From Candidatus Calditenuaceae archaeon (GTDB taxonomy: Archaea > Thermoproteota > Nitrososphaeria_A > Caldarchaeales > Calditenuaceae), in contig JANXED010000001.1 in the NCBI GenBank assembly GCA_025058175.1, forward strand, positions 62,001 through 126,000: 64,000 nt of DNA. Reading direction: 5' to 3'. The notes below the pieces were generated by a model. It was not told the origin of the DNA. It did no database searches and worked only from the letters and a program-made list of their open reading frames with translations. The translations under genes were made by a program, and so were the position numbers. This document shows positions 13,378-24,535 of this stretch, one piece after another. The stretch's first letter is position 1, and each line of letters begins with the position of its first letter.

Positions 13378-14181
13378 TTACTGCGGCGCCACCAGCGTCC
13401 CCTTCGGCTCCTCCAGGACCTTCAGTGGGTCCTCCACGAGCCCGTTGGAGATGATGGCCAACTTCACGCCGAACGAGACGGCCTCACCGGCCAGCATCAG
13501 CTTCCTGTTCATTCCGGGACCGATCCGCTGCGACAGGTCGAACGCCTCTTGAGGCGTCAGCCTCCCCACGACTTCCCCGTCCACGAGGACCCCGTCGACG
13601 TCGCTGAGCAGCACTAGGGCGTCGGCCGAGATCGCCTTCGCGATGGAGGTCGCTGCCTGGTCTCCGTCGACGTTCAGGAGCTCTCCCTCCTCGCTGACCG
13701 CGATGGGCGCGACGACGACCGTGAACCCGCTCGAGGTCAGGAGCTCCAGGAGTTGGGGCGAGACGGAGGTGATCATCCCGGTGTACCCGCCCTCGATGAC
13801 GCGCTTCCTCCCCCGGTCGTCGACCACGACTATCCTCTTCTTCCTCTCCGCCGTGAGCAGGCCGCCGTCGGCACCCGAGATCCCGACCGCCTTCACGCCG
13901 AGCTTCCTGAGGGCCGCGACGATCTCCTTGTTCAGCTTCCCTGCCATCACCATGACGTAGACCTCGAGCTCCTGGAGGTCCGTGTACCTGCTCCTAATGC
14001 CCTGCGGCGATGTCACGAACTTCGGCTCGATCCCCATGCGCCTGGAGTACTCGCTGACGACGTCACCCCCTCCGTGGACGAAGACGATCCTGTGGGAGCT
14101 GGAGCGCCTCGCGATGCTCTCCGCGATCCCCGTGAGGTTCCCGAGGAGCGCCCTGCCCCCTGCTTTCACGACGACCCTCAC
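13378..14181 (-). CDS. lysZ: LysZ-type amino acid kinase ([LysW]-aminoadipate/glutamate kinase)
   Basis: A 267-residue amino acid kinase of the ArgB/LysZ branch. Visible motifs: VVVKAGGRALL (ATP phosphate loop), VFVHGGGDVV, SRYTDLQELEVYVMVMAGKLNKE (the LysZ-specific substrate region; ArgB differs here), ISGADGGLL, VDGDQAA and VLLSDVDGVL. LysZ phosphorylates the carboxylate of LysW-bound alpha-aminoadipate or glutamate in lysine/arginine synthesis. It overlaps aroC by 4 nt as the last gene of the aromatic operon; LysW, LysX, LysY and LysJ are not here. Orphan placement next to an operon headed by asd may reflect coordination of amino acid synthesis, or simple rearrangement. Confidence 0.88.
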   Translation of the reverse strand: MRVVVKAGGRALLGNLTGIAESIARRSSSHRIVFVHGGGDVVSEYSRRMGIEPKFVTSPQGIRSRYTDLQELEVYVMVMAGKLNKEIVAALRKLGVKAVGISGADGGLLTAERKKRIVVVDDRGRKRVIEGGYTGMITSVSPQLLELLTSSGFTVVVAPIAVSEEGELLNVDGDQAATSIAKAISADALVLLSDVDGVLVDGEVVGRLTPQEAFDLSQRIGPGMNRKLMLAGEAVSFGVKLAIISNGLVEDPLKVLEEPKGTLVAPQ

Positions 14182-15323
14182 GCCCGAGTCGCCTCGCCGC
14201 TGTCCGGGAGGACCAGGTCTTTGCCCGTCCTCAGCACCGGGGGTATCACGCCAGCCCTGACCGCGTGGTCAGCCAGCACCATCGCCACGACCGACTCGAC
14301 GACCGGGACGGCCCTAGGCCCTATCACCGGGTCGTGCCTACCAGTCACCACGACCTCCTCCTCGGACATCGTGCGGACGTTCAGGGTCCGTTGTGGGAGC
14401 GCGATAGAGGCTGGAGGCTTGAAGGCGACCCTCACCACGATCTCCCTCCCTGTCGAGAGCCCCCCGACGATCCCGCCGGCGTTGTTGGTCACCGGGACAA
14501 CCCTTCCGTCGACGAGCCCAAGCGGGTCGTTGTTCAGGGAGCCCCGCGAGTTCACCACCCCAAAGCCCGCCCCGAACTCGATGCCCTTGACCGCAGGGAT
14601 CGAGAGGAGGGCCCTCGCCAAGTCCGAGTCCAAGGAGGAGAAGACCGGCTCGCCGAGGCCCGGGGGGACGTTGAGAACCAGGCACTCGACGAGGCTGCCG
14701 ACGCTGTCGCCGGACCCCCTCGCCTCCAGCACGACCTGCCTCATCCTCTCCGCCGCCTCCTCGTCGGGGCACCTAAGGTCGTTCGAGTACCGCTTGGCCC
14801 TTATCGCGTCCACGGGGAGCTCCCTCGCCTCTACGCCGTCGATCCTCTTCACGTAGGCGAGCACCTCGGTCCCTAGGGTCACCCTTAGAAGCTTAATCGC
14901 CACCGCGCCTGCCATCACGAACCCGGTGGTTATCCTCCCGGAAAACCTCCCGCCTCCGCGCCAGTCATTGAACCCGCCGTACTTGACCCTCGCGAAGTAA
15001 TCGGCGTGTCCTGGCCTCGGCGTCTCGAGCAGCCTCTTGTAGCTCCTAGAGTCGACGTCCTTGTTCCAGACCACCATCGCGATCGGCGCCCCGGTCGTGA
15101 AACCGTTGAAGACGCCGCTGAGGATCTCGACCCTGTCCTCCTCTCTCCTCTGGCTCGCGACCAGCGACTGGCCTGGCCTCCTCAGGTCTAGCAGAGGCTG
15201 AACGTCCTCCTCTGAGAGCGGTAGGCCTGCGGGGCAGCCGTCGATCACGACGCCGACGCACCTCCCGTGGCTCTCGCCGAAGCTCGTCACGACGAATCTC
15301 TCGCCGATCGAGTTACCTGCCAA
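14178..15323 (-). CDS. aroC: Chorismate synthase
   Basis: A 381-residue FMN-dependent enzyme converting EPSP to chorismate. Signatures: SFGESHGRCVGVVIDG at the N-terminus, the Arg-rich FMN/EPSP region ETPRPGHADYFARVKYGGFNDWRGGGRFSGRIT, and the C-terminal conserved VGRHDPVIGPRAVPVVESVVAMVLADH-like segment (seen as VTGRHDPVIGPRA). Length is normal. The start overlaps aroA by 11 nt and the end overlaps lysZ by 4 nt, so it is translationally coupled in the operon. Confidence 0.97.
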   Translation of the reverse strand: MAGNSIGERFVVTSFGESHGRCVGVVIDGCPAGLPLSEEDVQPLLDLRRPGQSLVASQRREEDRVEILSGVFNGFTTGAPIAMVVWNKDVDSRSYKRLLETPRPGHADYFARVKYGGFNDWRGGGRFSGRITTGFVMAGAVAIKLLRVTLGTEVLAYVKRIDGVEARELPVDAIRAKRYSNDLRCPDEEAAERMRQVVLEARGSGDSVGSLVECLVLNVPPGLGEPVFSSLDSDLARALLSIPAVKGIEFGAGFGVVNSRGSLNNDPLGLVDGRVVPVTNNAGGIVGGLSTGREIVVRVAFKPPASIALPQRTLNVRTMSEEEVVVTGRHDPVIGPRAVPVVESVVAMVLADHAVRAGVIPPVLRTGKDLVLPDSGEATRA

Positions 15324-16593
15324 CCTGCACGACCTCCAGCCCTACGCTCGAGACGTCCCTCAAGAAGTCTGGGTAAGAGACGTCGACCGAGCCGATCCCG
15401 AGCGTCTTCACCCTCCCGTGCGTCGCAGCGGAGAGGACCGCGAAGGCCATGAAGAGCCTGTGGTCGTCGCGCGGGTCCAAGACGACCTCGTTCACGGTCC
15501 CAGGTGAGACCGAGAGCCCGTCTTCGAACTCCTCGACGATCGCGCCCGCCTTTGCCAGCTCGGACGCGAGGACCGAGACCCTGTCGCTCTCCTTGAACCT
15601 CGCGTGCCTCACCCCCCTCACTATGGTCTTCCCGTCGGCGAAGAAGCCCAGGACCGCGACGACCGGGAGCAGGTCCGGTGAGTCCCTTAGGTCGACCTCG
15701 ACCCCCTCGAGGGCCGAGCCGCGAGTCTCGACGTATTCCTCGCCCCGCCTGACGCTCGCGCCCATCGCCTCCAGTATCTCGAGGATTGCGGAGTCGGCTT
15801 GGGGGAGAGCGGGGTCCAGCCCCGCGACGCGGACGTATCCTCCGAGGAGGACCGGAATGACCAGTAAGAACGCCGCGAGGCCGTAATCGCCGGGGACCGT
15901 GAACCTCCCACGCTTGAGCGCGCGACCTCCGACCACCAGCCGCTTACCGTCGAACTCTGCCCTTCCCCCGAAGGCCCTGACGGTCTCCAACGTCGCCGCG
16001 ACGTAGGGCCCCGAGACCAGCTCCCCGACGACCTCAACCTCGGTCACCTCCTCGCACGCGGAGCCCGCGATAGCCAGCGCGGAGAGGAATTGGCTGCTGA
16101 CGTCGCCTCTGATGCTGCACCGGCCTCCCAACGAGCCCTTTCCCTTCACGACGACCGGAGCGTAACCGTTCCCCCTCGTCGACCAGGCCTCGACGCCGAG
16201 CTGGCCCAAAGCGTCCAGGAGCGGCTGCATCGGCCTCCTCCTCAAGCTCGCGTCTCCGGTGAGGACCGTGTGACCTCTGCTGACGAGAGCCGCGACGCCG
16301 GTCGCGATTCTGAGCGTCGTGCCGGAGTTCATCGCGTCGATCACGTCCTCAGGGACCTCGGGCCAGCCTCCCTCGATCACCGCCGCCTCACCCATGAGCT
16401 CGACGTCGGCGCCGAACGCCCTCACAGCGCCGATGGTCGCCCTCGTGTCCCTTGAGACCAACGGGTTGTAGACGACGCTCTCGCCCTGGGCCAGCGAGGC
16501 CATGAAGACCGCCCTGTGAGTGTAGCTCTTCGAAGGAGGGGCCTTGACCTCTCCGCCGATGCTTTCTCTCGGCCTCAATGCGACCGCTCCCAT
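15313..16593 (-). CDS. aroA: 3-phosphoshikimate 1-carboxyvinyltransferase (EPSP synthase)
   Basis: A 426-residue enzyme condensing shikimate-3-phosphate with PEP. Conserved elements: VKAPPSKSYTHRAVFMASLA (substrate Lys/Ser/Arg), NSGTTLRIATGVAALV (the NSGTxxR motif), LTGDASLRRRPMQPLLDALGQLG, SSQFLSALAIA, and ESDRVSVLASELAKAGA near the C-terminus. ATG 16593 is preferred over ATG 16638 because GGAGGT lies 7 nt upstream and family similarity begins right after. It overlaps the aroE stop by 19 nt. Confidence 0.96.
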   Translation of the reverse strand: MGAVALRPRESIGGEVKAPPSKSYTHRAVFMASLAQGESVVYNPLVSRDTRATIGAVRAFGADVELMGEAAVIEGGWPEVPEDVIDAMNSGTTLRIATGVAALVSRGHTVLTGDASLRRRPMQPLLDALGQLGVEAWSTRGNGYAPVVVKGKGSLGGRCSIRGDVSSQFLSALAIAGSACEEVTEVEVVGELVSGPYVAATLETVRAFGGRAEFDGKRLVVGGRALKRGRFTVPGDYGLAAFLLVIPVLLGGYVRVAGLDPALPQADSAILEILEAMGASVRRGEEYVETRGSALEGVEVDLRDSPDLLPVVAVLGFFADGKTIVRGVRHARFKESDRVSVLASELAKAGAIVEEFEDGLSVSPGTVNEVVLDPRDDHRLFMAFAVLSAATHGRVKTLGIGSVDVSYPDFLRDVSSVGLEVVQVGR

Positions 16594-17429
16594 CCAACCG
16601 ACCTCCGCAGCGCGAACCTCCCGATCGCTTCCATCCATTTGTACCCGACCTCGGCCCCGGTCCAGAGCCTGAACGACGCGGCCGCTTGCCTCGCGAGGAC
16701 CTCCACGCCGTCGACCAGCTCGAGCCCCCTCGCCGAAGCGAGCCGAGACATCGGCGAACCCCTCGGCCCGTAGACGAGGTCGACGAGCAGCGCGCCGTCC
16801 TTGAGGTCCTCAGGCCCGATCGGGAGCTCAGCGCCCTCCACGAGCCCGACGGGTATCGTGTTGACCACGACTTGTGACCCCTTCGCGGCCTCCTTTGCCT
16901 TCTCGAGGGGTACCGCCGCGAGCCTCGACTCTCCTAACGTCCTGAACCTCTCGACCAGCTCCTGGGCCTTGGCGAGCGTCCTGTTGGCGATCGAGACGGA
17001 TCCGGCCCCGAGCGCGATCAGAGCCGCGACCGCCGCCCTCGCGGACCCCCCTGCCCCAATGACGAGGGCGTCGAACCCGCTCCCGATCGAACGCTCAGCA
17101 ACGGCCTCCCTGATCGCGACGTAGTCGGTGTTGTGTCCTTCCCACCCGTCGTCCGACCTCTTGAGCGCGTTCACGGCCCCGATCAGCGCAGAGTCCTCGG
17201 ACAGACTGACAGCGTGCTTCGCCGCCTCCTCTTTGTACGGGATCGTCACGTTCAGTCCAGCGAACCCGAGTTCGTGAAGGGCCCTCATCACAGAGCCGAC
17301 CGCGCCCGATGACCTGACGTGAACGGTCACGTAACTCAGGTCGAGCCCGAGCCTCCTCGCGGTTAACGTGTGGATCAGGGGCGACACCGAGTGCGAGATC
17401 GGGTCACCGATCAGCCCGAGCAGGGGCAA
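16575..17429 (-). CDS. aroE: Shikimate dehydrogenase
   Basis: A 284-residue NADP-dependent reductase of 3-dehydroshikimate. The substrate site is GDPISHSVSPLIH at the N-terminus, followed by NVTIPYKEEA (catalytic Lys) and HNTDYVAIREA (conserved Asp). The Rossmann motif is VIGAGGSARAAVAAL, with NRTLAKA as the NADP-ribose phosphate site. The C-terminus has VDGVEVLARQAAASFRLWTG. It starts at TTG 17429 inside the aroD 3' end (26 nt overlap), preceded by GGTGGTGG. Confidence 0.96.
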   Translation of the reverse strand: MPLLGLIGDPISHSVSPLIHTLTARRLGLDLSYVTVHVRSSGAVGSVMRALHELGFAGLNVTIPYKEEAAKHAVSLSEDSALIGAVNALKRSDDGWEGHNTDYVAIREAVAERSIGSGFDALVIGAGGSARAAVAALIALGAGSVSIANRTLAKAQELVERFRTLGESRLAAVPLEKAKEAAKGSQVVVNTIPVGLVEGAELPIGPEDLKDGALLVDLVYGPRGSPMSRLASARGLELVDGVEVLARQAAASFRLWTGAEVGYKWMEAIGRFALRRSVGWERSH

Positions 17430-18126
17430 GTGCCACCACCCGATTAAGGAGCTCCGCCAAGAGCTTCGTCTCAGGGACGCTCAGCTGTCCAGGTGCGACC
17501 TCTTTCCCCTTCAGCGCTGCGTAGGTGAAGGGCGCGCCGAGGACCAGCGAGAGCGGCCTCGTCAGGCTCCATCTCTCGCCGACCGAGAACGAGACGAGCC
17601 CTCCCCTCGACCACTCGACCTCCCGGTAAAGGGCGAGCGTCGAGGCGGCTCCCGCAGCGGTGACCGGCGAAGTGACCAGCTTCACTAGATCGCCGTGGGA
17701 CCTCAGGGCCTCCGCGAGCTTGACGAGCTCCGCGACGCTAGGGTCTCCGGGCCCGAGGTGGACAGACGCGATCACCCTTTCCGCCCCGAGCTCAGAGGCG
17801 AGCGACCTAACCTCGCGGATCATGAGGGAAGTCCTGTCGAGGTCCACGAGGTCAGCGTGCTCGGAGACAGCCCTCAAGACCTCGACGAGCGGCTTTGGTC
17901 CCCCGCTATAGCGACCGCCCTCCTCCCTCGACCTGACGGTAGCGATCACCGTCGCGCCCAGGTCCTTCGCGCCATCCACGACGGACGCGGCGAGGTTTAG
18001 CTCAGCGAGCGCGTCGAGCCTGAGCTCGATCAGGTCGGCGCCCTCCTCCAGCGCTCTACTCGTCAAGGCCTTGAAGCCCTCAGCGGTCTCAGACATGAGG
18101 CTCGCGCAGACCTTGAAGGCCCCCAA
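17404..18126 (-). CDS. aroD: 3-dehydroquinate dehydratase, type I
   Basis: A 240-residue class I aldolase-fold enzyme. ADLIELRLDAL is the first barrel strand with substrate-binding Glu and Arg. ASVH carries the catalytic His and GDLVKLVTSP the Schiff-base Lys. The C-terminal loop contains the substrate-binding Ser/Gln segment (EVAPGQLSV). It produces 3-dehydroshikimate for AroE. It lies 2 nt after the DHQ synthase gene. Confidence 0.95.
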   Translation of the reverse strand: MGAFKVCASLMSETAEGFKALTSRALEEGADLIELRLDALAELNLAASVVDGAKDLGATVIATVRSREEGGRYSGGPKPLVEVLRAVSEHADLVDLDRTSLMIREVRSLASELGAERVIASVHLGPGDPSVAELVKLAEALRSHGDLVKLVTSPVTAAGAASTLALYREVEWSRGGLVSFSVGERWSLTRPLSLVLGAPFTYAALKGKEVAPGQLSVPETKLLAELLNRVVALAPARADR

Positions 18127-18128
18127 GC

Positions 18129-19118
18129 TCAGACCTCCTCGATGAACTCGTCGACCGCGGTGCCCATGTGTCGGGCGGCAGCGCCCGACGTCCAGACGAG
18201 CACCCTGTCGCCCTCAGAGATCGAGGTCACGTCGAGTAGTTCGCCGTCCGGAGAGACGAGCCTTATGGTCTCCGCGGCCTGGAGCGCCACAGAGCCCGTC
18301 ATCCCGTCGACCTCGGCGACGACGTTCGCGAGCGGCCTCCTCTCGACCTTCACCCTACCCACCGAGACCACCCTGCACCTTCCGTCCCTCGAGACCGCGA
18401 GGACCCTGCTCCCTGACCTCAGCTCCGAGAGGTAGTTCGTCCTCCCGCCGGGAGCCAGGACGTAGCAGTGGACTGAGCCCGCGTTGACCCTGAAGGGCCT
18501 CGGCGGGGTCAGCCTGCTCCCGACCGACTCGCTGTGAACGAGGAAGAGCATCCTGGACATGTTCCCCACGAGCATCCCCTCGCCGACCCTGAGGATCGAG
18601 GTCGTGTCGACGCATGCCCTCTCGCCGAGCCCAAGCCCGACGACCTCCCTAACCTCTGCCTCCCTCAGCTCGAGCCTCTGAGGGGTGGAGAGCAGGTCCC
18701 TGATCACCTTCAGCTCCCCGAGCAGCTCCCTCCCGACCACGAGGCCGTCCACGCCCGACTCTAGGGCTCCAGCGACCAGCTCGACCTCTTGGAGCGACCT
18801 CACCCTCGCGAGGACCTTCACCCCGGAGCCCTGAAGGGCCGCGATGACGTTCTCCAGCGCGATCACCTTGAGGTCCTCGGGCTCGACGAGGACGGCCTGA
18901 ACGCCAGAGCTCGCCATCGACCTCAGCGCCTCCACGTCCGACTGGTCCCTGACCTTGGCGATCCTGAGGTTCCTCTCGAAGACGTACGATCTCGCCGCCA
19001 GATCCGGTGACTCCGCGGCAGGTACGAGGACCGCGTCGGCGCCCAGCTCCAGCGCCTCCCTCGCCTCGAGCTCGGACCCGGCCTCGACAACCAGCTCCTT
19101 GTGCCTACCCCTGGACAA
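18129..19118 (-). CDS. aroB': Archaeal 3-dehydroquinate synthase II
   Basis: 329 residues. This archaea-specific NAD-dependent enzyme oxidatively deaminates and cyclises 2-amino-3,7-dideoxy-D-threo-hept-6-ulosonate to 3-dehydroquinate, replacing bacterial AroB. Conserved segments include GLGERACVDTTSILRVGEGMLVGNMSRMLFLVHSES, RPFRVNAGSVHCYVLAPGGRTNYLSELRSGSRVL and RPLANVVAEVDGMTGSVALQAAETIRLV. The TTG start at 19118 overlaps the ADH synthase stop by 14 nt; pairing with that enzyme defines the archaeal entry into the shikimate pathway. Confidence 0.95.
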   Translation of the reverse strand: MSRGRHKELVVEAGSELEAREALELGADAVLVPAAESPDLAARSYVFERNLRIAKVRDQSDVEALRSMASSGVQAVLVEPEDLKVIALENVIAALQGSGVKVLARVRSLQEVELVAGALESGVDGLVVGRELLGELKVIRDLLSTPQRLELREAEVREVVGLGLGERACVDTTSILRVGEGMLVGNMSRMLFLVHSESVGSRLTPPRPFRVNAGSVHCYVLAPGGRTNYLSELRSGSRVLAVSRDGRCRVVSVGRVKVERRPLANVVAEVDGMTGSVALQAAETIRLVSPDGELLDVTSISEGDRVLVWTSGAAARHMGTAVDEFIEEV

Positions 19119-19890
19119 CCCTTAGAGCCTCCTCAACGGTCCTGCCCTCGATCACGATCCTCCTCAGAGCCGCGACGATCGATCGAGGCCTGTCGTGCAT
19201 GAAGACGTTCCTTCCGATCGTGACCCCCATCGCGCCCGCCTTCATCGCGCCGTAGGCCATCTCCAGGACATCGACGTCGCTCTCGGACTTCGGGCCGCCC
19301 GCCATCACCACGGGCGCTGGGCAGGACTCGACCACAGCCCTGAAGGTCTCCGGTGAGCCAGTGTAAGGCACCTTCACGACGTCAGCGCCAAGCTCTGCGC
19401 CGACCCTCGCGACGTGGGCGATCACCTTCGGGTCGCTCGGGTCCTTGACGTTCTCGCCCCTCGGATACATCATCGCGATCAGGGGCATCCCGTAGTCGTC
19501 GCACGCGTCCGCGACCCTCCCGAGCTTCTCGAGCATCTGGGGCTCTGCCCTGCTGCCGATGTTTACATGGACCGAGACCGCGTCTGCTCCGAGCCTGATC
19601 GCGTTCACGACCTCGCCCACGAGGACCTTCCAGTTCGGATCTGGACCTAACGACGTGCTCCCCGAGAGGTGGACTATGTGACCTATCCTCGGGGGCCTCG
19701 GCATGTGCTTCAGGATCCCCTTGTGGGTCAGGACCGCGGTCCCGCCTCCCAGCTCGACTTCCTCGATCGTCCGGTAGATCCTGTCGAGACCTTTCACGGG
19801 TCCAGTTGAGACCGCGTGGTCCATCGGCACGCAGAGCATCCTCCCGGACTCGGTGATCCTCGAGAGCCTCACCTGCTTGCCTGAGACCAC
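19105..19890 (-). CDS. aroA': 2-amino-3,7-dideoxy-D-threo-hept-6-ulosonate (ADH) synthase
   Basis: A 261-residue class I fructose-bisphosphate-aldolase-like transaldolase. It joins L-aspartate semialdehyde with a deoxyketohexose phosphate to give ADH, replacing DAHP synthase. Evidence: CVPMDHAVSTGP (substrate Asp), AVSVHVNIGS, LIAMMYPRG, DVVKVPYTGS (Schiff-base Lys) and VVMAGGPKSESD (phosphate site). Its position between asd, which supplies aspartate semialdehyde, and DHQ synthase II supports this over a glycolytic aldolase. GTG start 1 nt after the asd stop. Confidence 0.94.
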   Translation of the reverse strand: MVSGKQVRLSRITESGRMLCVPMDHAVSTGPVKGLDRIYRTIEEVELGGGTAVLTHKGILKHMPRPPRIGHIVHLSGSTSLGPDPNWKVLVGEVVNAIRLGADAVSVHVNIGSRAEPQMLEKLGRVADACDDYGMPLIAMMYPRGENVKDPSDPKVIAHVARVGAELGADVVKVPYTGSPETFRAVVESCPAPVVMAGGPKSESDVDVLEMAYGAMKAGAMGVTIGRNVFMHDRPRSIVAALRRIVIEGRTVEEALRVVQG

Positions 19891-19891
19891 C

Positions 19892-20944
19892 TCACACCAA
19901 CCTCCCCGTAGCGTGGGCCAGCTCGGCAGTCAGGATCGCTATCCCCGCGGCTCCCCTGACGAGGTTGTTGCTCAGCGAGACGAACCTGATCGTCCTCTCC
20001 CTCGCTCCCTTCCTCAACCTCCCGACGAAGACCGGCATGCCCCTCACGTCGCCCGCTTCTGCGTCGAGCCTCGGCTGAGGCCTGTCGGGCTCGCTCATCA
20101 CAACGATCGGCCTTCGCGGCGCCGTCGGGAGCTCCAGCCTCTGCGGTAGGCCCTCGAAGGAGCTCAGCGCCTCGACTGCATCCTCGAGCCTGAAGTCCCT
20201 CCCGAGCTCGACTGAGACGGACGCGAGGTGGCCGACCAGCGTCGGGACCCGCGTGCAAGTGGCGTCGACCTCGAACCCAGCCGGCTCGACCCTGCCGTCC
20301 GCGAGCCTCCCCAGTATCTTCTTCGGCTCCGTCGAGACCTTCTCCTCCTCTCCCCTGATGTACGGGATCACGTTGCCGAGGATCGCCATAGAGGGGACGC
20401 CGTTGTAACCAGCTCCTGAGATGGACTGCATCGTCACGACGTCGACGTGCCTCACGCCGAACGCGTCGACGAGCGGCTTTAGGGGTAAGACGAAGGTCAG
20501 GGTCGTGCAGTTGGGCGTCGTCACGATGAAGCCGTCCCATCCCCTTCTCCTCCTCTGGACCTCGATCAGGTCGAGGTGGTCGGGGTTCACCTCTGGGACC
20601 ATGAGCGGCACGTCGTCTTGGTACCTGTGAGCAGAGGCGTCGGAGAAGACCGGGAAGCCGGCCCTCGCGAACCCCGGCTCGATGGTCCTCGCAGCCTCGG
20701 TAGGGAGGCAGCTGAAGACCAGGTCGACGTCGAACCTCTTCGGGTCCGACGGCAGCACCTCTAGGTCCCTGAGCCTCTCTGGCACCTCGCCCCTCCCCCC
20801 GTAAGCCTCGGCCAACCTCCTCCCGACCGTCGTGTTCCCTGAGACGGCGGAGACCTCGAACCATGGATGCCCGTCCAGCATCCTCAGGTAGATCTGCCCG
20901 ACCATGCCCGTAGCTCCCAGGACACCCACCTTCAACTTGCCCAA
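19892..20944 (-). CDS. asd: Aspartate-semialdehyde dehydrogenase
   Basis: A 350-residue NADP-dependent enzyme making aspartate semialdehyde from aspartyl phosphate. VGVLGATGMVGQIYLRML is the Rossmann motif, FVTTPNCTT-like VTTPNCTTL carries the catalytic Cys, and SISGAGYNGVPS and the His in VGHLASVSVEL complete the family pattern. It is the first gene of the aromatic operon, where its product feeds ADH synthase directly; it also serves Thr/Met/Lys routes. The start is TTG 20944, with GGGGTGA at 20952-20958 and 7 nt spacing. That ribosome-binding site can pair with the upstream leader peptide codons (see the leader entries). Confidence 0.95.
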   Translation of the reverse strand: MGKLKVGVLGATGMVGQIYLRMLDGHPWFEVSAVSGNTTVGRRLAEAYGGRGEVPERLRDLEVLPSDPKRFDVDLVFSCLPTEAARTIEPGFARAGFPVFSDASAHRYQDDVPLMVPEVNPDHLDLIEVQRRRRGWDGFIVTTPNCTTLTFVLPLKPLVDAFGVRHVDVVTMQSISGAGYNGVPSMAILGNVIPYIRGEEEKVSTEPKKILGRLADGRVEPAGFEVDATCTRVPTLVGHLASVSVELGRDFRLEDAVEALSSFEGLPQRLELPTAPRRPIVVMSEPDRPQPRLDAEAGDVRGMPVFVGRLRKGARERTIRFVSLSNNLVRGAAGIAILTAELAHATGRLV

Positions 20945-20948
20945 GCAC

Positions 20949-21080
20949 GGTTCACCCCAGAGACGGAGGCGGAGGGGGCGGGCGCGGGTTCCTTCATCCT
21001 CAGTTCCCGAAGTAGAAGTAGGGGTAGGTCGTGAACCAGAACGCGTTCACCGAGCTCAGGACCACACCTACCCCCTCCGC
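20949..21080 (-). promoter_or_regulatory. Candidate translational attenuator between the leader peptide and asd
   Basis: On the minus-strand RNA, three pairings are possible. (1) GCGGAGGGGG (21080-21071), which holds the leader peptide Shine-Dalgarno, is perfectly complementary over 10 bp to CCCCCTCCGC (20978-20969) just after the leader stop. (2) GGTTCAC (21037-21031, in the Trp-Phe-Thr codons) pairs over 7 bp with GTGAACC (20955-20949) at the asd ribosome-binding site. (3) TACCCC (21026-21021) pairs with GGGGTG (20958-20953), excluding pairing 2. A ribosome stalled on aromatic codons would block pairings 2 and 3 and free asd. No U-run terminator is present, so translational rather than transcriptional control is favoured. 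Pairings were found by eye, without folding energies. Confidence 0.5.
21000..21065 (-). CDS. Putative aromatic-amino-acid leader peptide (21 residues)
   Basis: A GTG-started ORF of 21 codons ending in TGA, 55 nt before asd, the first gene of the chorismate operon. GGAGG (21078-21074) is 8 nt before the start, and a TATA-like box at 21103-21112 predicts a transcript start near 21081. Residues 9-19 read FWFTTYPYFYF: eight aromatics in eleven (four Phe, three Tyr, one Trp), covering all three end products of the pathway. All 21 sense codons end in G or C, whereas in-frame codons upstream of the GTG have only about 40% GC3, so coding character begins at this GTG. The form is that of bacterial attenuator peptides such as TrpL and PheL. 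Confidence 0.65.
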   Translation of the reverse strand: MVLSSVNAFWFTTYPYFYFGN

Positions 21081-21102
21081 TCGGACTGCTCCGAAAAGAC
21101 CA

Positions 21103-21112
21103 CGATAAAAAC
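21103..21112 (-). promoter_or_regulatory. TATA-like box for the leader peptide/aromatic operon
   Basis: On the minus strand the sequence reads GTTTTTATCG. Its distance predicts transcription starting around 21081, just before the leader peptide Shine-Dalgarno. A second, weaker candidate (CTTTATGG, about 21141-21148) overlaps the plus-strand box of aroK. Confidence 0.5.
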
Positions 21113-22057: not shown

Positions 22058-22410
22058 GCGAGATGAAGCAGGTGATCGTCGTCCGGGCCGACGTGAGGAT
22101 GAGCGTCGGGAAGCTCGCCGCCCAAGTAGGACATGCGGCCGTATCCGCGTTCCTCGAGGCGAGGAGGTCGAGGCCCGAGTGGGCCGAGAGGTGGCTCGAG
22201 TCGGGTCAGAAGAAGGTGGTCCTCAAGGTCGGGGGCCTCGACGAACTGCTGAGCCTCAAGAGGAGGGCGGAGGCGCTGGGGATTCCCGCGGCCCTGATCG
22301 AGGACGCCGGGCTCACCGAGCTCGAGCCCGGTACCACGACCGCCTTGGGTTTGGGACCCGCGCCGTCGGAGCTGATCGACAAAGTGACCGGCTCATTACA
22401 GCTCCTCTAG
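22054..22410 (+). CDS. pth2: Peptidyl-tRNA hydrolase, Pth2 family
   Basis: A 118-residue archaeal/eukaryotic Pth2, which recycles peptidyl-tRNA. Family motifs: [29 protein letters not shown] (catalytic Lys and His region), [51 protein letters not shown]. It starts at TTG 22054 overlapping the aroK stop, with GGAGG about 8 nt upstream, so it is coupled to aroK. Its 3' end overlaps the convergent PurP-like gene by 4 nt. Confidence 0.96.
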
Positions 22411-23459
22411 GTCAGGACCTCCTCGAGCGTCCCCTGCTCCTCGGCCTCCTTCAGCTCGATCGCGATCCTCCTCCCCATGCTCACCGCCCTGCCAAGCCAG
22501 AGCTTCGAGTAGTTCCCGCCCGTCCCCATGTGGGCGTTGGTCCCTCCACCTATCCTGGGTGCGAAGTCGTAGACGACCGCCTTCAGGTCCGGCGTCACCA
22601 TGATCTGAAGGGTGAAGGGCCCTATCAAGCCAGGAGGCTCCAACCGCCTTGAGGCCTCTAAGACCTTTAGCCCGATCTCGTAGCACTCGTTCAGGAGGCT
22701 CTCCCTGAGGGTACAGGGGACGTGCCCGACCTCGATCATCGAGTGCGGCAACTCGAGTCCCAGCTGAACTTTGGCTGGCAGCCTGGTCAAGCCGTCGAGG
22801 TTGGTCTGGATCCTCCTGTCCGCGCTGATGATCTCGAGCCTCCCGTGGACCCGACTCCAGAAGAAGTTGACGTTGAAGTGGGCCCCTAGGACCAGCTCCT
22901 CCGCGACCGCGGTCCTCAGCCCGTTCTCCGATATCAGACCCGATGAGAGCGCCGTCCTCACCTTCGCGTTCAGGTCGTCGCGGTCGGTCGCGTAGATGAA
23001 CGCCCTCTCCTGCGGCCTATTCGCTTCCTGGACCTTAAGGAGCACAGGACCTTCGACCTCGTCCAGGTCACTGAAGACCTTAGGCCTCCTGACGTCGGCC
23101 TCATCGAGGAGCCTGTAGTAGTTGGACTCTCCGGTCCTCTCCTCCCACCTCAACATCCTCCTGTTCCCGAAGACAGGGACCCTCAGCTTCCGCTCTATTC
23201 CCTCGTAACCGACGTAGACGGCCATGCTCCGGTTCGGGACGACGACGCACCCGAGCTCCTCCAGCCTCCTCTGCACTTCATCCCGCAGCATCTCCCTGTA
23301 GTCGTTCAGGTCGATGCAGAAGTCCACCAGCCTGGTCAGCGATTTGTAGATCAGGTCGCGCCCACTCTTACAGATCGCGACCGTCTCAAGCCCCTCGTCC
23401 TTGGCGCCGTCGAAGACGTCGAGCGCCGAGTGTGAAGCGACGCAGGCCACGCGGACCAC
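22407..23459 (-). CDS. PurP-like ATP-grasp ligase (divergent paralogue)
   Basis: A 350-residue member of the PurP family (DUF1246 + DUF1297), the archaeal formate-dependent FAICAR synthetase of purine synthesis. The N-terminus [27 protein letters not shown] is typical, as is [24 protein letters not shown]. The C-terminal segment reads [26 protein letters not shown], departing from the canonical ARIVAGTN-GSPY pattern kept by the neighbouring paralogue. It lies directly downstream of that gene on the same strand. It may be a second PurP subunit or have a shifted substrate; ATP-grasp residues appear intact. Confidence 0.85.
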
Positions 23460-23492: not shown

Positions 23493-24515
23493 TCACGTCA
23501 GGACCTCTATCAGGCTTCCGGTCTCCGCGGAGACCCTCAGCTCCAGCGCGATCCTTCTCCCGACGGTCATGGGCTCGCCGAAGTAGAGGGCGAGATAGGG
23601 GCTGCCGTGCTTGAGGTAGACGTTAGTCCCCGCGACTATCCTCCCGCTGAACTCAAAGACGTGGACGTTCAGGTCTCTGTCGACGACCGACTCGAGGCAG
23701 AAGGGGCCCGCGAAGGGCTGGCCCGTCACCCTCACGACCGCCTCGACGAACCTCTCGCCGAGCTCCGCAAAGGTCTCGAGGAGCCTCTCCCTCGGGAAGA
23801 CCGGGAAGTTCCCGACGACGGTGAAGGTCGGCGAGACCCTCTCAACCACACCCATCGGTGCCCTCCTCAATCCGTCAGCGTCCGACTCGTACCTTACGTC
23901 GAAGCCCGTGAGCTCGGTCCTCCGGTGGACTGGGGAGTGGAAGAAGTGCGCGTAGAGCGTCGTGCCGACCACGTACTGTTGGATGATCGGCCGCTCGCCG
24001 GGCCTCAGCACGCCCGAGGCACATGCGGTCTCCAGCCCCCTCCGCACCTCCTCGGGCGAGCTGGCGACGAAGTACCCCCGCCCTCCCCTCGCGCCGGGGA
24101 ACTTCACGATCACGGGCCCTTCGACCTCCTCGGGCGAGCCGTACTCCTTCGGGACCGGTATCATGGCCTCCCTGAGGAGCCGCATCTTGGACTCCTGAGA
24201 GGACTCTATCGCCAACAGCCTCCTCGACCCGAAGACCGGGATCCTCGTCCTGACTACGTTCTCGGCGCCCACGTACTCGACGACCGAGCCGTTCGGGACC
24301 AGAACGTAGCCCTCTTCGCCGAGCGAGTCCAGCGTCCCGATGCCCTCGTAGGGCCTCTGATCGAACTTGAGGACCGGGAACCTCCTGTACAGCCTGAGAG
24401 CGCGTTCGTCGCCGAAGAGGACTGCCCTGAGGCCCTCCTCGGTCGCGCCGATCACCACTTGGACCGCTGAGTGACTCGCGAACGCCGCTATGCCCGGAAG
24501 GGATTCCTTAGGCAT
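23493..24515 (-). CDS. purP: Formate-dependent FAICAR synthetase PurP
   Basis: A 340-residue ATP-grasp ligase converting AICAR, formate and ATP to FAICAR, the archaeal alternative to folate-dependent PurH. AAFASHSAVQVVIGATEEGL opens the DUF1246 domain. IPVFGSRRLLAIESSQESKMRLL and EGPVIVKFPGARGGRGYFVASS form the ATP-grasp region. FEFSGRIVAGTNVYLKHGSPYLALYFGEPMTVGRRIALEL is the canonical C-terminus. ATG 24515 is preferred: the TATA-like box at 24536-24545 makes it leaderless. TTG 24527 is also in frame. It is followed by a divergent paralogue. Confidence 0.9.
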   Translation of the reverse strand: MPKESLPGIAAFASHSAVQVVIGATEEGLRAVLFGDERALRLYRRFPVLKFDQRPYEGIGTLDSLGEEGYVLVPNGSVVEYVGAENVVRTRIPVFGSRRLLAIESSQESKMRLLREAMIPVPKEYGSPEEVEGPVIVKFPGARGGRGYFVASSPEEVRRGLETACASGVLRPGERPIIQQYVVGTTLYAHFFHSPVHRRTELTGFDVRYESDADGLRRAPMGVVERVSPTFTVVGNFPVFPRERLLETFAELGERFVEAVVRVTGQPFAGPFCLESVVDRDLNVHVFEFSGRIVAGTNVYLKHGSPYLALYFGEPMTVGRRIALELRVSAETGSLIEVLT

Positions 24516-24535
24516 CCGGCTATCCAAAGTTAATC

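Follow-up and report, generated by a model that had tools for sequence, protein, structure and literature searches.

The window, that is, the whole 64,000-nt stretch of DNA that was analysed, comes from a fragmented genome in Calditenuaceae, a hot-spring archaeal family of the order Caldarchaeales, and carries a shikimate operon on its minus strand. The co-directional genes, in the order of transcription, are as follows.

19892..20944, minus strand: asd, aspartate-semialdehyde dehydrogenase, first operon gene (TIGR00978, 435.7 bits)
19105..19890, minus strand: 2-amino-3,7-dideoxy-D-threo-hept-6-ulosonate synthase (ADH synthase, ADHS; TIGR01949, 331 bits)
18129..19118, minus strand: 3-dehydroquinate synthase II (DHQS; NF002627, under the curated cut-off, E 7e-87)
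17404..18126, minus strand: type I 3-dehydroquinate dehydratase, aroD (TIGR01093, E 1e-27, under the cut-off)
16575..17429, minus strand: shikimate dehydrogenase, aroE (TIGR00507, over the cut-off)
15313..16638, minus strand: EPSP synthase, aroA (TIGR01356, over the cut-off)
14178..15323, minus strand: chorismate synthase, aroC (TIGR00033, over the cut-off)
13378..14181, minus strand: amino-acid kinase of the [LysW]-aminoadipate/glutamate kinase type, last co-directional gene (NF010662, 345.6 bits; PF00696)

The earlier note on this DNA had described eight operon genes leading to chorismate. This is right for seven of the eight co-directional genes, but the eighth encodes the amino-acid kinase, and shikimate kinase is transcribed divergently from the operon in the window, as is pth2. 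The amino-acid kinase gene (13378..14181, minus strand) overlaps the end of aroC and has no obvious link to chorismate synthesis. All 11 family genomes share the gene order asd-ADHS-DHQS-aroD, and in nine of them shikimate kinase lies divergently upstream. An in-frame TGA noticed in ADHS of two genomes is merely the natural stop at the gene end. Elsewhere on the minus strand, 22407..23459 and 23493..24527 are tandem paralogues, each with a DUF1246/DUF1297 pair, which we take to be the archaeal PurP arrangement.

A short leader ORF and its putative expression signals lie upstream of asd.

21105..21112, minus strand: TATA-like box GTTTTTAT of the leader/asd operon, 7/8 AT in the window
21078..21071, minus strand: Shine-Dalgarno (SD)-like tract GGAGGGGG, ending 5 nt upstream of the leader GTG
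21065..21000, minus strand: leader ORF with a GTG start and 21 codons, MVLSSVNAFWFTTYPYFYFGN, and a TGA stop at 21002..21000
21009..21020, minus strand: core aromatic codons TAC TTC TAC TTC, mainly in the strand that joins stems P2 and P3 (see below)
20952..20958, minus strand: SD-like GGGGTGA of asd, outside the P1-P3 structure

The leader ORF is separated by 55 nt from the TTG start of asd (20944). The 21-codon ORF with its GTG start, the SD-like tract, and the TATA-like box are found in the sequence as had been claimed, and the run FWFTTYPYFYF does contain eight aromatic residues among its 11. This run ranks first for aromatics among the 776 short ORFs in the window (the runner-up has 5/11), and when the intergenic region was shuffled 20,000 times with its dinucleotides preserved, a count of eight was never reached. 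In G001, a whole, near-complete congeneric genome of 1.57 Mb, the leader orthologue is the top aromatic cluster among 20,166 short ORFs. Chance is rejected by these comparisons. The earlier note had also relied on codon composition, with 100% GC3 in the leader and about 40% upstream of the GTG. The counts agree in the window (21/21 leader codons, compared with 11/26 upstream in-frame codons), but many codons of the relatives' leaders end in A or T. Because the GC3 contrast is not general across the relatives, we dropped it as evidence of coding.

The leader feature is real and conserved. All 11 Calditenuaceae genomes with asd, from four genera (g1 to g4), contain the leader ORF at the same place and in the same frame, while the identity of their asd to that of the window falls from 82% to 65%. 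The leader peptides are VVLSSVNAFWFTTYPYFYFGN in the window, VVLNSPVLNGFTTYPYFYTSRRG in L003, MGRVNLLGFAFTAYTYFYFWEG in L004, VGCSNFKFTGFTTYAYFYAWKS in L011 (g2), and MGADLRYTLGFTSDGRAYFYTDAP in L012 (g3), and the six g4 leaders (L005-L010) have MSRGRG[VI]GRS at the start and TT[TA]YA[YF][FY]F inside. No in-frame stop occurs in 284 codons, compared with 35 stops in 546 off-frame codons (19/273 and 16/273), a count that gives no formal probability because the compared sequences are related and not independent. The leaders range from 21 to 29 residues, with N termini and C-terminal tails that vary even inside one genus, and the start position is shifted between genera with the reading frame maintained. 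The conserved core is Y-x-[YF]-[FY]-[YF]; of the four core codons at 21009..21020, the first three encode Tyr or Phe in 11/11. In the three codons after Y-x, the second position changes only between A and T, the third only between C and T, and the first never. Parsimony on the asd tree, counted by hand, gives about nine changes in the core, each of which keeps Tyr or Phe. Under a simple random-substitution model, P for this pattern is about 1e-6 to 1e-5, or about 1e-3 without the four changes of L010. The earlier note had suggested aligning the relatives, and the alignment bears it out, with the short ORF and its aromatic codons kept in 11/11 and the core substitutions staying aromatic.

The same alignment narrows down which amino acids the leader could sense. 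Aromatic enrichment outside the core is found in g1 and g2 only, and L012 lacks TTY, the segment there reading SDGRAYFY. Trp is present in six of the 11 leader peptides at non-homologous positions, so joint sensing of Phe, Tyr, and Trp is not supported. The earlier proposal of an attenuation peptide for all three amino acids thus stands for the conserved ORF and the kept Tyr/Phe core but not for Trp, which is not conserved. We rejected Trp sensing on the scattered Trp residues and on the lack of any leader upstream of trpE in ten family genomes. Judged from the sequences, the leader looks like a Tyr/Phe sensor and not a Phe/Tyr/Trp sensor. The trpE 5' regions (L054-L056, L058, and L060-L062, in g2, g3, and g4) have a conserved string of their own, about GG..TTTAGTTTGGC, which lies before the likely TTG start and extends into it; no leader ORF was seen there.

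The leader bases also form a covarying three-way junction of three stems, P1, P2, and P3, which is absent from the earlier note.

21071..21082, minus strand: P1 5' arm GAGCGGAGGGGG, at the predicted 5' end of the transcript, including GGAGGGGG
20966..20978, minus strand: P1 3' arm, the C-rich tract CCCCCTCCGCCTC between the leader and asd
21055..21069, minus strand: P2 5' arm, the leader start region
21020..21034, minus strand: P2 3' arm, formed by the F-T-T-Y-P-Y codons
20984..21010, minus strand: P3 hairpin, which contains the stop codon of the leader; clear in relatives but weak in the window

P1 pairs the leader ribosome-binding site with the C tract upstream of the asd SD in 11/11 genomes and shows compensatory changes at four of its 12 pairs. 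On an unforced MAFFT alignment, 87% of the P2 cells are paired, compared with 36-44% when the arms are slid by 1-3 columns, and seven of the 15 pairs show two-sided changes; across the relatives, P3 shows them at four of five pairs. For P1, P2, and P3 together, 92% of the cells are paired and 16 of the 32 pairs have two-sided changes, which none of 500 shuffles matches, on an alignment that lacks one end base pair of L012 and in which P1 and P3, placed by hand, are favoured by construction. The minimum free energies have z scores of -3.5 to -6.2 relative to shuffles in eight of the 11 genomes, and the signal is weaker in L002 (the window), L003, and L012; L012 has only a weak P1 and no P3. The leader start region of L002 and L003 can also pair with GCGCC.GCCCCC in an extended P1, which competes with P2 and is favoured over it. 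The two stems could possibly act as an alternative-fold switch, which is not obvious in genus g4. In the C tract (20966..20978, minus strand, and likewise in L003-L012), most relatives have CCUCC, the anti-Shine-Dalgarno core of 16S rRNA, so the tract mimics the ribosome's partner of the leader SD.

Transcription is predicted to begin at the foot of this structure. In the window, about 26 nt separate the TATA-like box from the G-rich tract that follows. All 11 genomes have an AT-rich octamer (TTTAAATT, TATAAATT, and similar; 8/8 AT in ten of them) centred 25-31 nt upstream of the P1 base. Its position places the predicted start at the P1 base, upstream of the leader. A start downstream of position 21065 had been named in the earlier note as contrary to its reading; the predicted start lies upstream of the leader ORF in 11/11. 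In g4, the leader ATG is at about the predicted +1, that is, the leader is leaderless, and in g1 to g3 the start codon follows an SD-like G tract.

Covariance model R1 matches all 11 family genomes; beyond the family, a search of 44 genomes from the class and a sample of 300 from the phylum gave no convincing match. Two extra matches, in L184 (E 0.03) and L185 (E 0.046), look like chance; L184, the one that was read, lacks the asd context. No homologous leader was found elsewhere in the order Caldarchaeales, in which asd and ADHS adjoin throughout. The other families of the order thus share the asd-ADHS neighbourhood with Calditenuaceae, but their asd stands either behind an aspartate-kinase-like frame or first without a leader, and the element appears in Calditenuaceae alone. 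By eye, the frame upstream of asd in these families resembles the C-terminal (ACT-type) part of aspartate kinase. An aromatic-rich leader was not found upstream of asd in 21 further archaeal and bacterial loci, and the whole G001 genome contains no other aromatic-run leader and no other convincing amino-acid leader. That genome also has, at about position 644367 of C1 (minus strand), a 23-codon His/Cys-rich ORF, VRRLGAHEEHSHGHGGCSCGCGH, with an SD-like tract, 39 nt before a peroxiredoxin-like ORF; it is possibly a metal-binding micro-protein.

Comparative sequence analysis supports the ORF and its aromatic core codons, the RNA structure, the placement of the promoter box, and the association with the operon. 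On these grounds, the element is probably a ribosome-mediated leader-peptide attenuator of the Calditenuaceae shikimate operon. The leader codons and stop belong to an RNA structure that a ribosome would alter, the TTYxY codons forming the P2 3' arm and the stop lying in P3. The main rival is a riboswitch or protein-binding RNA, in which an aptamer-like P1-P2-P3 senses an aromatic metabolite or binds a protein and the ORF is incidental. It would explain the closing P1 stem, the coaxial P1 and P2, the P2-P3 junction strand, and the strong covariation, all of which resemble junctional riboswitches. P2 pairing is in part the reason for the conservation of the TTYxY codons, and pairing alone accounts for much of it. 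The junction strand UAYUUYUWY is partly conserved; its variation, in length and with codon periodicity, seems unlike that of a ligand pocket. The frame is also free of stops, the start and stop codons are kept though the start has moved between genera, and the encoded residues match the pathway product. Rfam searches at E 0.5-1 gave no relevant leader, T-box, or riboswitch match in the window or ten relatives; the sole tRNA match, in L004, lies away from the leader. We therefore regard a riboswitch with an incidental ORF as unlikely.

A nascent-chain arrest peptide of the TnaC/SecM type, in which FTTYxYFY itself would stall the ribosome on a metabolite and not on tRNA charging, fits the conserved segment near the C terminus, the variable N terminus, and the stop codon soon after. 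Phe and Tyr interchange and their order changes in the core, however, and L012 has SDGRAYFY in place of TTY, so codon identity fits better than a specific arrest sequence, and we consider such a peptide quite improbable. That the ORF encodes a small functional protein and stands first in the operon by coincidence is more doubtful still; this would account for the conservation and for the promoter and start signals, but not for a product of 21-29 residues with an unconserved N terminus and tail, whose coding bases are constrained by RNA pairing. There is hardly any room for a functionless aromatic run in a conserved promoter region common to the divergent shikimate kinase gene, since the region is a divergent promoter in 9/11 genomes but the shuffles and the genome-wide rank speak against such a run and the conservation and covariation fall downstream of the TATA box.

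For the attenuator, we infer that the leader is translated and that ribosomes stall on it, as well as the direction and level of control. The transcript would begin at P1, and the ribosome would translate the leader, stalling on the Y-x-Y-F-Y/F codons if charged Tyr- or Phe-tRNA runs short. Because these core codons make up the P2 3' arm and the junction strand, a stalled ribosome would hold P2 open and cover the P3 side. With ample Tyr and Phe, the ribosome would reach the stop in P3 and depart, and P1-P2-P3 could then fold as a compact three-way junction behind RNA polymerase, leading to less read-through into asd-ADHS-DHQS-aroD. An effect on RNA polymerase elongation may come from the compact junction itself, or the ribosome-free C-rich RNA may serve as an entry site for FttA/aCPSF1, the termination factor of archaea. 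P1 may also lock out leader initiation once the C tract has been transcribed.

We folded the leaders with a modelled 31-nt ribosome footprint at different positions. P1 is predicted to break only with the ribosome on the leader start; with the ribosome at the stop or on the core codons, it persists in most genomes. The unpaired probability of the asd SD and start shows small, inconsistent changes across the modelled positions. Translational control by masking of the asd SD is not supported by this modelling, in which the SD is about equally accessible in every state, making masking of the ribosome-binding site unlikely; control of transcription elongation or RNA fate is the favoured output. 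A mutually exclusive terminator/antiterminator pair was not found, P1 being unswitched between the modelled stalled and stop states in most genomes. Nor was a U-tract terminator found, the only five-T run among the leaders being in L011, close to asd. To our knowledge, archaea lack bacterial-style Rho and hairpin-plus-U terminators.

Amino-acid leader-peptide attenuation is a textbook case of transcription-translation coupling, which the sources we found describe in bacteria alone. Like trpL, pheL, and hisL of enterobacteria, the Calditenuaceae element places a short ORF ahead of an amino-acid operon. This ORF is enriched in codons for the pathway product, and its codons and stop lie inside RNA hairpins. 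The element differs from the enterobacterial leaders in being archaeal, in having a three-way junction instead of the 1:2, 2:3, and 3:4 hairpin series, in lacking a U-tract terminator hairpin, and in that P1 links the ribosome-binding site of the leader itself to the C tract upstream of asd. In addition, it is leaderless in g4, targets the common chorismate pathway, and matches no Rfam leader family. As in TnaC, SecM, and the ErmC leader, a short stretch of an upstream ORF close to its C terminus is conserved, but the tolerance of Phe/Tyr exchange and reordering in the core points to codon identity rather than a fixed peptide. Junctional riboswitches likewise have a three-way junction whose closing stem is at the 5' end of the transcript, upstream of a biosynthetic operon. 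Unlike them, the element has a translated-looking ORF that spans the junction, a strand that varies like codons, and no large invariant unpaired block, and again no Rfam match.

In our literature search, whose coverage left out most subscription journals so that it is no proof of absence, no archaeal amino-acid leader-peptide attenuator was found. According to a 2010 paper, such attenuation had until then been known from no phyla other than Proteobacteria and Actinobacteria, to which that paper added Firmicutes (PMC2965389). Transcription-translation coupling was reported in Haloferax in 2021, with attenuation cited as the classical case through bacterial work (PMC8576121). Ribo-seq of M. mazei places about 10% of the new small ORFs in 5' UTRs (PMC11456600), so archaeal upstream ORFs as such are already known. 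Ribosome-mediated leader-peptide attenuation has apparently not been described in archaea. A little less firmly than the attenuator itself, we favour its being an independently evolved archaeal one, in which Tyr and Phe are sensed together for the whole chorismate pathway, a three-way junction replaces the terminator/antiterminator, and the leader is leaderless in one genus. If this is true, control through ribosome sensing would have arisen in archaea too, and the leader of Calditenuaceae would provide a defined locus for asking whether ribosome position controls archaeal RNA polymerase.
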